IMG/VR virus record: IMGVR_UViG_3300008050_000166
Location: 1-32,415 of that record
DNA from: a virus
Length of the DNA stretch: 32,415 nucleotides
Direction: 5' to 3' (one strand)
Position numbers and translations under genes: made by a program
Notes under the pieces: generated by a model
Seen by the model: the letters and a program-made list of their open reading frames with translations, nothing else
What the model was told of the DNA's origin: nothing
Databases searched by the model: none
Shown here: piece by piece, positions 2,187-30,041 of the stretch
How positions within the stretch are numbered: the stretch's first letter is position 1
How the letters are laid out: every line of letters starts with the position of its first letter

Positions 2187-2398
2187 TGGGTGGAGTATTT
2201 AAAGCATTTGCAAGTATTTTTAAAAGTAGTAAGAGAAAACGTCCAAAAACACCAGAACCTACTATGCCAAAAGCAGAACTAGCACAACTACAACGACAAC
2301 GTACATTAGGTGCAGGACATGGTGGACAAACTATTATGTCTGGTACAAGTGGTGCAACAGAACAAGCACAAACTGGTAAAACTTTATTGGGTGGATAG
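2186..2398 (+). CDS. Small protein with C-terminal GKTLLGG motif (first of two related genes)
   Basis: This 70-residue protein has a short hydrophobic and basic N-terminus, a Pro/Lys-rich middle and a C-terminal tail ending TGKTLLGG. A second small gene downstream (from 2814) shares the pattern 'R-x-R-x-L ... G-x-x-G ... TI(M/L)(S/T)G ... T-E-x-A-x-x-GKT(L/I)LGG'. Such proteins are common next to portal genes in podovirus-like genomes and are usually annotated as hypothetical or virion-associated. The overlaps at both ends are one base (TAATG and TAGTG). Confidence 0.75.
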   Translation: MGGVFKAFASIFKSSKRKRPKTPEPTMPKAELAQLQRQRTLGAGHGGQTIMSGTSGATEQAQTGKTLLGG

Positions 2399-2823
2399 TG
2401 ATAGAAATAGTTTCTACTGAAGAATGGAAAAATAAATGTTATGAATGGATAAAACCTAAAGCACATTTATATTCTGATAATGAAAAATTTTCTTATATAG
2501 GAATAATAGAAGATAAAAAAATATTAGGAGTTATTTTGTTTTCAGATTATGATGGCAACAATATATTTGTTCATGTAGCACTTGATAATCCAAGAGCTTG
2601 TCAAAGAAAAGTTATAAAATTAATGTTTGACTATATATTTAATCAAGCAGGATGCAGTAGAGCTACAGCAACTTGTAATAATAGTAACAAAAAAATTAAA
2701 AAATTAATTGAAGGTGTTGGTTTTGAACAAGAAGGTCTTATGAAAAATGCAATGCAAATAGACGAAACATATGTAGACGCAGCAGTTTACGGAATGTTAA
2801 AGGAGAATTGCAAATGGGTATGA
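2398..2823 (+). CDS. GNAT-like N-acetyltransferase
   Basis: This 141-residue protein starts at a GTG that overlaps the preceding TAG. The layout is GNAT-like: a strand segment with YIGIIEDKKILGVILF at about 32-47, a helix with NPRACQRKVIKLMFDYIF that fits the acetyl-CoA loop region, then a GVGFEQEGLM-type strand. Acetyltransferases of this size lie near the portal gene in several T7-like and marine podoviruses, where their target is unknown. The canonical acetyl-CoA-binding 'Q/R-x-x-G-x-G/A' loop is degenerate here (NPRACQRK), so catalytic activity is uncertain. Confidence 0.65.
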   Translation: MIEIVSTEEWKNKCYEWIKPKAHLYSDNEKFSYIGIIEDKKILGVILFSDYDGNNIFVHVALDNPRACQRKVIKLMFDYIFNQAGCSRATATCNNSNKKIKKLIEGVGFEQEGLMKNAMQIDETYVDAAVYGMLKENCKWV

Positions 2824-3023
2824 AACCAAAAATGCCAAAACCACCACCAGTAATAGATACTTCTGGTGAAAGTGCAGCAAGATTAGAAAAGGAAAGAAAA
2901 AGAGCTTTAGAAATTGGCAGAATGGGTAGAGCTGGAACTATACTTACAGGTGGCGAAGGTGTAACTGAAGAAGCATCAGTTGGTAAAACTATATTAGGTG
3001 GTAGTTCAAGGAATACATATTAA
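2814..3023 (+). CDS. Small protein with C-terminal GKTILGG motif (second of two related genes)
   Basis: The preferred start is ATG 2814, eight bases after an AGGAG at 2801-2805. A TTG at 2808 and an ATG at 2820 are alternatives. The product has a Pro/Lys-rich N-terminus (KPKMPKPPPV), a charged helical centre, and the tail TILTGGEGVTEEASVGKTIL followed by GG. That tail matches the protein encoded at 2186-2398, so the two look like paralogues separated by the acetyltransferase. The stop shares its last base with the portal ATG. Function is unknown, but the portal-proximal position suggests a virion or assembly role. Confidence 0.75.
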   Translation: MGMKPKMPKPPPVIDTSGESAARLEKERKRALEIGRMGRAGTILTGGEGVTEEASVGKTILGGSSRNTY

Positions 3024-4687
3024 TGGAAGAAAAATTTAATTATATAAAAAAAAGAATGAACCAAATGGAAGGAAGTAGGGGTACTTGGGAAGATCATTGG
3101 CAAGAAATACTTGATTATGTAATGCCAAGAAAAGCTGATATTACTTTTAAAAGAACTAAAGGGGAAAAAAGAGCTGAAATACTATTTGATTCAACAGCTA
3201 TTACTGCTAGTAATTTACTTGCAGCTAGTTTGCAAGGCACATTAACATCACCATCATTACAATGGTTTTCTATAAAAGTTAGAAACGAAGAATTAATGCA
3301 AGATAGAGAAGTGCAATTGTGGTTAGAAGATTCATCAAAACGTATGTATAACTTGTTTAATGAAACAAATTTTAACACTGAAGTGCACGAGATGTATCTT
3401 GATATTGTTACTATTGGAACTGGTGCATTATTTGTAGAAGAAGGAAATGGTGGTTACGAAAAAAATCAAATACATTTTAACACAATGCATATTGCAGAAT
3501 ATTACATACAAGAAAATACTTCTGGTTATGTAGATACTCTTTACAGAAGATATAAATTATCAGCAAGACAAGCTGTGCAAGAATTTGGCGAAGATAATCT
3601 TGGTGAAAAAGTATTAAAAGCTGCAAAAGAAAAACCTGATAAAATGTTTAATTTTATTCATGCAGTAGAACCACTTGAAGATTACGAAAGGACTATGGGT
3701 AAGTCTGATACTAAATTGCCATTTCATTCATGTCATGTATGCGAAGAAGATAAAATGTTTGTTAGAGGTGGAGGATATAATGAATTTCCTTACCTTGTAC
3801 CTAGATGGTCAAAAGCAACAGGCGAAATATTTGGACGTTCACCATCATATAATGCATTGCCAGATATTAAAACACTTAACAAAGCAGTAGAAATAGGACT
3901 TAAAGCATGGGCAAAAGCTATTGATCCACCATTATTAGTACAAGATGATGGTGTAATAGGTAGAGTAAGAATGACACCTGGTGGTATTACTGTTGTCAGA
4001 AATGATGCAGCAATTAAACCTTTACAAATTGGTAGCAATTGGCAAATAACAGATTTAAAAGAAAACCAATTAAGAACAGCAATACGTCAAGCATATTATT
4101 CTGACCAGTTACAATTACAAGATGGTCCACAAATGACTGCTACAGAAGTACAAGTAAGATACGAACTTATGCAAAGACTACTTGGACCAACACTTGGTAG
4201 ATTTCAATCGGAATTTTTAAACCCACTTATTGATAGGGTGTTTGGTCTTATGTTTAGAGCTAATGCATTTTTACCTGTACCTGAAATCATACAAGGTGAA
4301 ACAATAGATGTTGAATATGTTGGACCACTTGCAAGATCACAACGAATGGAAGAAGCAGTTGCAGTTGAAAGACTTTATCAACTAGCTATGCAAATTGTAC
4401 AATTAGATCCATCAATAATGGATATTATAGATCATGATGAAGCAATAAGAATGAGAGCTAATTTATTAGGTGTTCCTAAATCTGTTTTAAGAGGAAGAGA
4501 AGAAGTAGATGAAATGAGAGAAGCTAAAGCACAACAAGCTGCTATGGAACAACAAATGATGCAACAACAACAAATGGCAGAAGTAGCACAGAAACAAGCA
4601 GGTATAGCATCTGAAATGGCAAAACCAGAAACAAGAGAAATTATTGAAGAAGCTACACAAATAGCTGAAGAAGATGATGTAATGTAA
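3023..4687 (+). CDS. Portal (head-to-tail connector) protein
   Basis: This 554-residue protein is close in size to T7 gp8. It belongs by appearance to the Head-tail_con family: it opens with helices around EGSRGTWEDHWQEILDYVMP, then the FDSTAITASNLLAASLQGTL segment typical of podovirus portals. It should form the dodecameric ring at one capsid vertex through which TerL pumps DNA and to which the tail tubular proteins attach. The C-terminus (about residues 495-530) is rich in Gln and Met, a common portal-barrel feature. It is coupled to the genes on both sides by TAATG overlaps. Confidence 0.93.
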   Translation: MEEKFNYIKKRMNQMEGSRGTWEDHWQEILDYVMPRKADITFKRTKGEKRAEILFDSTAITASNLLAASLQGTLTSPSLQWFSIKVRNEELMQDREVQLWLEDSSKRMYNLFNETNFNTEVHEMYLDIVTIGTGALFVEEGNGGYEKNQIHFNTMHIAEYYIQENTSGYVDTLYRRYKLSARQAVQEFGEDNLGEKVLKAAKEKPDKMFNFIHAVEPLEDYERTMGKSDTKLPFHSCHVCEEDKMFVRGGGYNEFPYLVPRWSKATGEIFGRSPSYNALPDIKTLNKAVEIGLKAWAKAIDPPLLVQDDGVIGRVRMTPGGITVVRNDAAIKPLQIGSNWQITDLKENQLRTAIRQAYYSDQLQLQDGPQMTATEVQVRYELMQRLLGPTLGRFQSEFLNPLIDRVFGLMFRANAFLPVPEIIQGETIDVEYVGPLARSQRMEEAVAVERLYQLAMQIVQLDPSIMDIIDHDEAIRMRANLLGVPKSVLRGREEVDEMREAKAQQAAMEQQMMQQQQMAEVAQKQAGIASEMAKPETREIIEEATQIAEEDDVM

Positions 4688-28306: not shown

Positions 28307-29146
28307 ATGGTTAATGCTTATAATGGTCAAGTTTTTTATACTGATTGTAGTAGTTATTATGAGTTCCTTTCTGTTTTTGGTGAGCAACACAGTTTTCAAA
28401 CTTTTGATGATAAAGGGAAAAATAGGAAACTTATTAAACAATTTCATGGAACGATTAAAGAACACTTTCATGCGTTAGCTGAATTGAATAGGCAGGGAGC
28501 AGGTGTATTTTTTTGTGTCAATGAAACTAATTTACTAGGTAGGACTACTGAACACATAACAAAAGTAAGAGCTTTGTTTATAGATTTAGATGGCACACCA
28601 TTACCTACTGAATGGGAATTGCAACCACACATTATAACCAACACAAGTCCAAATAAGTATCATGCGTACTGGTTAGTTAAAGATGTACCACTTGTTAGTT
28701 TTAGTTTGTTTCAAAAATCACTTGCTAATAAATTTAATTCTGATCCAAAGGTTCACGATCTCCCGAGGATTATGAGGATAGCGGGATTCTATCATTTTAA
28801 AAAGAAACCATTCCCAGTTACCATACATCAGATTGCTTCAAGGATTGAGCCATACACAAGGGCAGAAATAAAAAATGGTTTAGGATTAAAAAGACCAGAG
28901 CAAAAGGTTTATACATTTGACAAGTCAGAATACAAAGGCAAGTACACAGGCACAAGACAAGGTGCGACAAAAGGCGACAGGCACGAGCAACTTGTAAAGA
29001 TTCTAATTGCTTGTAGAAAAAGAGGGGAAACTTTTGAGTATGCAAAAGAGGAAGCATTAGAGTTTGCTAGAAACTGCAACCCACCAGAGAGTCCAAGAGA
29101 AGTTATGTTTCAACTAAACGATATATGGAGAAGATATGCACCATAA
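28307..29146 (+). CDS. RepB-like / AEP-superfamily primase
   Basis: This 279-residue protein has the archaeo-eukaryotic primase core seen in RepB-type plasmid primases. The catalytic pair is FIDLDG (91-96, with D93 and D95). SPNKYHAYW (114-122, with H119) is the 's-x-H' motif. HDLPRIMRIAGFYHFK (150-165) corresponds to the third, Arg/Asn-rich motif. It should synthesise primers on phage DNA. The C-terminal helical part (about 200-279) may bind helicase or DNA. It begins one base after the DUF1376 stop and overlaps the methyltransferase gene by 11 bases. Confidence 0.85.
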   Translation: MVNAYNGQVFYTDCSSYYEFLSVFGEQHSFQTFDDKGKNRKLIKQFHGTIKEHFHALAELNRQGAGVFFCVNETNLLGRTTEHITKVRALFIDLDGTPLPTEWELQPHIITNTSPNKYHAYWLVKDVPLVSFSLFQKSLANKFNSDPKVHDLPRIMRIAGFYHFKKKPFPVTIHQIASRIEPYTRAEIKNGLGLKRPEQKVYTFDKSEYKGKYTGTRQGATKGDRHEQLVKILIACRKRGETFEYAKEEALEFARNCNPPESPREVMFQLNDIWRRYAP

Positions 29147-30041
29147 ATTTACAGTATTAGATTTGTTTAGTGGCATAGGTGGTTTTAGTTTAGGTTTAGA
29201 ATCTACTGGTTATTTTGAAACCATAGCTTTTGTAGAGAAAGATCAGTTTTGTCAAAAGGTATTAACAAAAAATTTTAAAGACATACCAATCGAAGGAGAT
29301 ATAAGAAATGTTAAAGGACAGAAATATGAAGCAGATGTGGTTACTGGGGGATTCCCCTGTCAACCATTCTCAACAGCAGGGAAAAGAAAAGGAACAGATG
29401 ACGACAGATATCTCTGGGATGAAACTATTAGAGTCATCAAAGAATGTAAACCCAGATGGTTTATTGGGGAAAATGTTGAAGGTATTGTTAACATCCAAGA
29501 CGGCATGGTACTCAGACAGGTGCAAAACGATTTGGAAGAACAAGGTTTCGAAGTCAGGTGTCTTATTATTCCAGCTAGTGGCAAAGGTGCATGGCATCAA
29601 AGAAAAAGGGTTTGGATTATTGCCAACTCCAACAGTAGGTTGCGAGGAAGGGGGAGAGCAGTCGAACAGGGTAGAGCAAACAAAGTCTGGAAGTTTTATT
29701 CTAAGAAAGAAGAACAAACCAGAATCAACATTTGGAGCAAAACTATCGGACACAATGCTGTACTTAGAAAAGAAGATGTACCCAACACCGAACACAAGAG
29801 ATTCTCGCAGAGGATGCAATCAAAAACAACTAGCAACAGAAATAGACAAAGAGAATCCGAAGGCAAGGAAACTTGGTGGCAAACTGAATCCAGAATTTGT
29901 GGAGTTCCTAATGGGGTATCCTATGAACTGGACAAAAATAGATCCAAACGAGTAAAAGCTCTTGGTAATTCTATAGTGCCGCAAATAGTTTATGAAATAG
30001 GTAAGGCAATTATTGAAGGAGAAACAAGTGCATCAGCTTAG
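29136..30041 (+). CDS. C5 cytosine DNA methyltransferase
   Basis: This 301-residue enzyme transfers a methyl group from S-adenosylmethionine to cytosine C5. Motif I is DLFSGIGGFSLGLE (9-22). Motif IV is GGFPCQPFS (71-79) with catalytic Cys75. Motif VI is ENV (112-114), motif VIII is QRKRVW (155-160), and motif X is ALGNSIVPQ (275-283). The target-recognition segment lies between about 165 and 260 and is Arg/Asn/Ser-rich. No partner restriction gene was seen, so it is probably an anti-restriction or self-marking enzyme. The +1 frame over 29608-29955 also reads like a methyltransferase C-terminus (see separate entry). It overlaps genes at both ends. Confidence 0.92.
   Translation: MHHKFTVLDLFSGIGGFSLGLESTGYFETIAFVEKDQFCQKVLTKNFKDIPIEGDIRNVKGQKYEADVVTGGFPCQPFSTAGKRKGTDDDRYLWDETIRVIKECKPRWFIGENVEGIVNIQDGMVLRQVQNDLEEQGFEVRCLIIPASGKGAWHQRKRVWIIANSNSRLRGRGRAVEQGRANKVWKFYSKKEEQTRINIWSKTIGHNAVLRKEDVPNTEHKRFSQRMQSKTTSNRNRQRESEGKETWWQTESRICGVPNGVSYELDKNRSKRVKALGNSIVPQIVYEIGKAIIEGETSASA
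29608..29955 (+). other. Second reading frame with methyltransferase-like C-terminal motifs
   Basis: Read one base forward from the methyltransferase frame, this stretch gives GLLPTPTVGCEEGGE, then MYPTPNTRDSRRG, then GGKLNPEFVEFLMGYPMNWT. I recognise this LPTPT ... LNP-(E/x)-(F/W)-VEWLMG-x-P-x-x-W-T series as the usual C-terminal part of another large set of phage C5 methyltransferases. The annotated frame over the same DNA gives WWQTESRICGVPNGVSYELD, also family-like. The +1 frame is open from 29308 but lacks motif X, so it is not an independent gene. Two compensating frameshifts or a dual-frame segment could explain it. Confidence 0.6.

Follow-up and report, generated by a model that had tools for sequence, protein, structure and literature searches.

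The window analysed here is a virus contig of 32,415 bases from IMG/VR (IMGVR_UViG_3300008050_000166, positions 1 to 32,415), which carries a gene for a C5 cytosine methyltransferase that we call alpha. Within this gene, a second open reading frame (ORF), displaced by one base relative to alpha and referred to below as the +1 frame, runs for 216 codons without a stop (29305-29952) and holds a nested gene that we call beta (Table 1). Here, we present evidence that the two overlapping frames are both selected at the protein level, and we weigh the reading that alpha and beta are the two subunits of a single methyltransferase.

Frame 0, the frame of alpha, matches PF00145 (1e-54), TIGR00675 and phrog_363, while the +1 protein matches phrog_1008 (9e-28), as do 18 of 18 aligned members of its family; phrog_363 and phrog_1008 both carry the label 'DNA methyltransferase'. 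Searches of the +1 protein against Pfam, NCBIfam, PADLOC and PDB gave no match, and those of Pfam, NCBIfam and PDB revealed no HNH domain in the +1 frame. When the +1 protein alone was used as a tblastn query, it retrieved 104 phage records, among them KT997847 (45% identity, 2e-44) and Paenibacillus larvae phages (30%, 5e-12), and IMG/VR contributed 285 relatives; the E-values of the locus searches are relative to the candidate stretches.

The initial annotation had read the interval 29600-29960 as family-like protein in two frames. Both peptide series that it quoted are found in the sequence as given, and separate searches found homologues for each frame rather than for one of them only. The dual reading is real in this interval and includes the target-recognition region, as had been proposed, but it was drawn too short: it extends upstream over motifs III-VIII, and only the last half of the +1 ORF had been seen. 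The accompanying idea that two known families are frames of one DNA segment holds for phrog_363 and phrog_1008, though not in the sense of a mere ancient frameshift whose products now reside in different genes.

Table 1. Features of the alpha/beta locus in the window
Feature	Position	Strand	Frame	Remarks
Alpha, C5 cytosine methyltransferase	29136..30041	+	0	301 amino acids; motifs I-VIII and X, without a recognisable motif IX
Motif I	29160..29183	+	0	DLFSGIGG; profile match
Shine-Dalgarno sequence of the +1 gene	29293..29298	+		AAGGAG; within the alpha codons of the EGDIR segment; ATG 9 bases downstream
Beta, nested gene of the phrog_1008 family	29308..29955	+	+1	215 amino acids; ATG at 29308, stop TAA at 29953-29955
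Motif IV	29346..29372	+	0	GGFPCQPFS, with the catalytic Cys; dual-coded with the beta N-terminus
Motif VI	29466..29483	+	0	GENVEG; dual-coded
Motif VIII	29598..29621	+	0	QRKRVWII; dual-coded
First PTP repeat of beta	29620..29640	+		LPTPTVG; opens a cassette; ANSNS in frame 0
Second PTP repeat of beta	29779..29802	+		YPTPNTRD; frame 0 reads VPNTEHKR
C5 methyltransferase motif IX, in beta	29881..29931	+	+1	KLNPEFVEFLMGYPMNW
Motif X	29958..29984	+	0	ALGNSIVPQ; directly after the end of beta

Selection on the two reading frames

We compared the locus with shuffles in which synonymous codons were permuted within the gene, keeping the alpha protein and its codon usage exactly. The overlap contains no +1 stop, against a mean of 9.4 and a minimum of 4 in 1000 shuffles; the corresponding absence of stops from 230 type-B loci is partly by construction. 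In 88 of 88 homologues, +1 identity to the window protein exceeded that of synonymous shuffles of the homologue (z 3.2-16.9, median 9.3), the shuffles retaining 18-46% identity.

Codon positions tell the same frames apart along the gene. Among 2061 related gene pairs, differences at positions 1, 2 and 3 amounted to 0.29, 0.19 and 0.29 inside the overlap, compared with 0.23, 0.15 and 0.44 before it and 0.27, 0.19 and 0.47 after it, and synonymous differences at conserved residues were 0.21 inside vs 0.40 and 0.42 outside. The ratio of position 3 to position 1 differences was 1.88 before the overlap, 1.58 over motifs III-VIII, 0.80 in the target region and 1.69 after the overlap. Selection is dominated by frame 0 in motifs III-VIII and by the +1 frame in the target region, where identity is 0.554 for +1 and 0.493 for frame 0. 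Constraint, which the initial annotation had suggested measuring in each frame across homologues, is accordingly absent from neither, and in the target-recognition part it is the +1 frame that is the more conserved. Of 232 loci, 53% have a Shine-Dalgarno match of at least six bases at the +1 start, compared with 9.7% in shuffles, an approximately five-fold enrichment. On the evidence of these alignments, the nested frame has a translation start signal and is under protein-level selection and, with both frames selected, the locus is an overlapping dual-coding gene.

Occurrence of the dual frame

The methyltransferase lay at the expected +1 offset in all 66 of 66 further viral loci found with the +1 alignment, down to 28% identity, although one of these (L166) has a frame change and another (L145) a stop in alpha. 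Throughout the fetched loci with a +1 match, the methyltransferase is one base apart, except in a few with indels or stops. All 80 of 80 loci taken from the genomes of bacteria belonging to many phyla likewise showed the +1 offset, two of them with a frame change as well. Since these searches had used the +1 protein, we repeated the search with alpha as query: both frames were intact in 78 of 79 distinct loci and the remaining one was partial, the +1 matches in this count coming from a hidden Markov model (HMM) of the same family. These 79 loci are close relatives of the window alpha, so the count does not give the reach of the rule among phage methyltransferases. The nested frame is also present in distant relatives: Guernseyvirinae (K1G), Salmonella phage SEN4 and Pseudomonas phage 5399. 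Judging by these loci, the dual frame occurs both in phages and, across many bacterial phyla, in loci that resemble prophages.

Three further observations concern individual records. Five identical copies of the methyltransferase locus (L198-L202) lie in one chromosome record of a Roseovarius metagenome-assembled genome, and are probably repeated prophages or an assembly effect. In Mycobacterium phage Ochi17 (L256, gp73/gp74), a single indel near 1926 has led to the annotation of the methylase as two genes, and it displaces the two frames alike. In the window itself, the gene immediately upstream of the methyltransferase (28307-29146) is primase-like, with 68% DNA identity to the 'DNA primase' of Pelagibacter phage EXVC032P, suggesting a SAR11-type host for the window virus.

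Motif IX in the nested frame

A motif-by-motif profile test found motifs I, IV, VI, VIII and X in order in frame 0 (p < 0.002 each), but not motif IX (best score 2.2, p 0.58). Motif IX was found in the +1 frame instead (score 10.7, next best 1.6, p < 0.002), and the match was repeated in four separate subsets, with scores of 9.0-11.8 against 2.8 for a third-frame control. The best-conserved element of the +1 family reads G-x-L-N-P-x-[FW]-V-E-x-L-M-G-[FY]-P-x-x-W, and when the +1 profile was scanned in ungapped windows against a canonical C5 methyltransferase profile, this element aligned with motif IX (RLTPRECARLQGFPDDF) as the top match. In the DNA it directly precedes motif X, which is the usual place of motif IX.

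The target region and the beta extension

Motifs VIII and IX are separated by an array that comprises 0-5 PTP repeats, 2 being the commonest number among 229 proteins; the repeats are gained and lost as in-frame cassettes, as seen between L010 and L011. Beyond the alpha stop, 22 loci keep the +1 ORF open for another 100 codons or more; over these, the ratio of nonsynonymous to synonymous substitution rates (dN/dS) is about 0.22 and the third +1 position changes fastest. In L013 (3263-3757) and 21 other loci, this extension is a conserved domain with a helix-turn-helix-like motif (IPKTKIEHWFRKDNSFSYPS). It is related to mid-protein inserts of other phage methyltransferases, found in Staphylococcus phage Alsa_4 (adenine/N4 type) and Pelagibacter phage HTVC134P (C5 type). 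An independent downstream gene lying in frame by chance would be a less likely source of the extension.

The resemblance of the extension to methyltransferase inserts, together with the stronger +1 conservation in the target region, suggests that beta takes part in target recognition. A further idea we advance tentatively, with the odds somewhat against it: the target-recognition region would be dual-coded such that an exchangeable PTP cassette encodes a recognition element of beta and, at the same time, a segment of alpha that matches it, a swap would change both interacting chains at once, and beta would do much of the recognition. It would suit this idea that conservation in that region is stronger in the beta frame and that beta can have an additional helix-turn-helix-like domain.

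A putative two-subunit methyltransferase

In M.EcoHK31I, as described in a passage of PMC3404938, a large polypeptide holds motifs I-VIII and X and a small polypeptide holds only motif IX. The locus studied here is reminiscent of this enzyme in its division of motifs, with I-VIII and X but no IX in alpha and IX in the small +1 polypeptide, and because this division matches the one reported for M.EcoHK31I, alpha and beta may be regarded as two subunits of one enzyme. We assign a probability of roughly 0.82 to the reading that a pair of dual-coding genes here specifies an alpha/beta C5 cytosine methyltransferase of two subunits, in which beta is most likely alpha's missing second chain.

Starting from the dual selection, the enriched Shine-Dalgarno and start signal and the confinement of motif IX to the +1 frame, which come directly from the comparisons above, we infer the translation of beta, its assembly with alpha, methylation and the protection of phage DNA. 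The long frame would yield alpha with the catalytic motifs I-VIII and motif X, and ribosomes would also start on the same mRNA at the internal Shine-Dalgarno/ATG within the motif III codons, reading the +1 frame to produce beta. Beta would end in motif IX, a conserved helix of the small DNA-facing domain that is absent from alpha. By analogy with M.EcoHK31I, the two chains would then assemble into an active enzyme that would methylate phage DNA, probably as a protection against host restriction.

Because the alpha family is universal and beta was found only together with alpha, the upstream half of beta was probably overprinted on alpha. The position of motif IX in the +1 frame, in turn, suggests that the IX segment is old methyltransferase sequence that has moved out of frame; where the final portion of the gene is concerned, the initial annotation may thus have been partly correct in proposing a single ancestral segment with two readings.

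Comparison with known systems also brings out differences. Unlike M.EcoHK31I (YGGCCR; Lee, Kam and Shaw 1995), which belongs to a bacterial restriction-modification system, the genes described here are phage and prophage genes, have PTP-repeat cassettes in variable number and, in 22 of the loci, a further domain at the C-terminus of beta. In this locus and its relatives, the small gene is nested in the large one in another frame. The gene of the M.EcoHK31I small subunit is likewise reported to be nested, in a different frame, within that of the large subunit, and M.EaeI is reported to be a relative. A two-chain split is also described for the C5 methyltransferase M.AquI in a passage of PMC3404938; unlike in M.AquI, motif X here remains in alpha and the two genes overlap. 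The out-of-frame HNH endonuclease inserts of the ShiLan domain (PMC11855218) are similar in that a phage methylase gene encodes another protein out of frame. Those inserts are mobile insertions of an HNH nuclease, occur in a few phages and had no ribosome-binding site found, whereas here there is no insert and no HNH, a Shine-Dalgarno sequence is present, and the overlap covers the catalytic motifs and is fixed across the subfamily. We found nothing direct in the literature on a nested gene in phage C5 methyltransferases. The alpha/beta split is of a known kind; its spread, the modular dual-coded target region and the beta extensions look unreported.

Several observations weigh against a two-subunit enzyme. 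Without a prior location, the motif IX match in the ungapped-window scan reaches only p about 0.02, and comparisons of the whole of beta with canonical methyltransferases, by plain HMM and by hhalign/profile-profile alignment, were not significant, the motif-by-motif test being the decisive one. AlphaFold models of beta alone have low confidence, with predicted local distance difference test (pLDDT) values of 68 and 65 and a predicted template modelling score (pTM) of about 0.32, and Foldseek matched the beta model to no solved fold but only to the known homologue KT997847; models like these might be expected of a subunit whose folding depends on its partner. In L145, L219 and L260, moreover, the alpha frame is interrupted and beta is open, which a strict alpha/beta enzyme would not need, unless the interruptions are recent decay or assembly errors. 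The alpha frames of L145 and L260 are interrupted by stops. In L219 (a Brevibacillus borstelensis contig, 2238-3522), alpha ends after motif VIII and motif X lies in beta's frame; this beta would bring motifs IX and X together with the variable region on a single chain, in the manner of the M.AquI split, or it may be a decaying copy.

The same three loci, which keep the +1 frame open despite an interrupted methyltransferase frame, would fit a nested gene whose translated product has a separate job, for instance in anti-restriction or as an accessory protein, and which was overprinted on the methyltransferase gene and is merely tied to it. All the evidence for translation and selection fits such a protein equally, and the +1 product has no recognised domain. 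We nevertheless consider it unlikely: of the two frames only +1 contains motif IX, in the right place before motif X, and other phage methyltransferases have target-region inserts that the C-terminal extension resembles. Nor did a stand-alone copy of the +1 protein appear in phages, plasmids, bacterial genomes or a survey of 249 Bacillota genomes; in that survey, 76 genomes had a C5 methyltransferase and 4 a phrog_1008 match, each (4/4) overlapping a methyltransferase, and all 80 genome loci lie inside one. Stand-alone proteins of the form LPTPT...LNPEWVEWLMG, which had been expected, were without example in the same collections.

Programmed ribosomal frameshifting, by which a single chain would run from the alpha N-terminus into the target region and motif IX of the +1 frame and so have a different C-terminus, is much less probable still. 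It would account for the passage of selective dominance from frame 0 over motifs III-VIII to +1 in the target region, and the frame change in L166 does fuse both frames. However, constraint on beta reaches well upstream of motif VIII, the nested gene has a Shine-Dalgarno sequence and an ATG of its own, and the beta stop precedes motif X, so that a shifted product would lack motif X.

It is highly improbable that the +1 similarity merely reflects codon usage or the conservation of frame 0. Part of the similarity does follow from frame 0, as the identity kept in shuffles illustrates, but the observed identity is far greater, stops are absent, and change at position 3 is suppressed only inside the overlap; the shuffle test and the codon-position differences refute this explanation. 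Among 30 ordinary C5 methyltransferases from Bacillota, examined as a negative control, 29 had no +1 match and the other a weak and partial one.

Least probable of all, to the point of being negligible, is a local frame swap in this contig through two compensating indels or an assembly error, which the initial annotation had raised and for which single indels in L166, L223 and mycobacteriophage Ochi17 offer a parallel: the same dual reading recurs with both frames open in hundreds of independent records, at all divergences and in cultured phages, and the search begun from alpha, with both frames intact in 78/79 loci, refutes it. Compensating indels are also unneeded, the two frames being open and selected together in the same gene across large divergence. 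Because both frames are kept open and selected together, and because the +1 frame starts far upstream at its own Shine-Dalgarno sequence and ATG, the overlap is best read as neither a frameshift relic nor an indel pair nor an artefact.

Annotation and significance

Members of the +1 family have been catalogued before: PHROG_1008, the 'Mte8-like' proteins (K1G ORF30) and BLOOM_57 of Paenibacillus phage Bloom are the family itself, and K1G and Bloom annotate the +1 frame as a second coding sequence nested in the methylase. Their labels are DNA methyltransferase or hypothetical, with dual coding and motif IX unrecognised. Annotations often treat the +1 frame by itself as a methyltransferase (PHROG_1008; GenBank 'Mte8-like', 'YdiP' and 'DNA methyltransferase'), and in the marine record KT997847 it is annotated together with a short alpha N-terminus, the rest of alpha being left unannotated.

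C5 methyltransferases are among the best-studied enzymes, yet a whole phage subfamily is apparently annotated as single-chain or with the nested frame as a second 'methyltransferase'. If alpha and beta do form a two-subunit enzyme, a large PHROG label would be corrected, and there would be a possible reason for the failure of such phage enzymes when cloned as a recoded or codon-optimised alpha alone. Compared with the dual-coding genes so far known from bacteria and their phages, this one would be among the longer and more widely distributed, and would offer hundreds of natural variants for studies of how two proteins evolve on one DNA.
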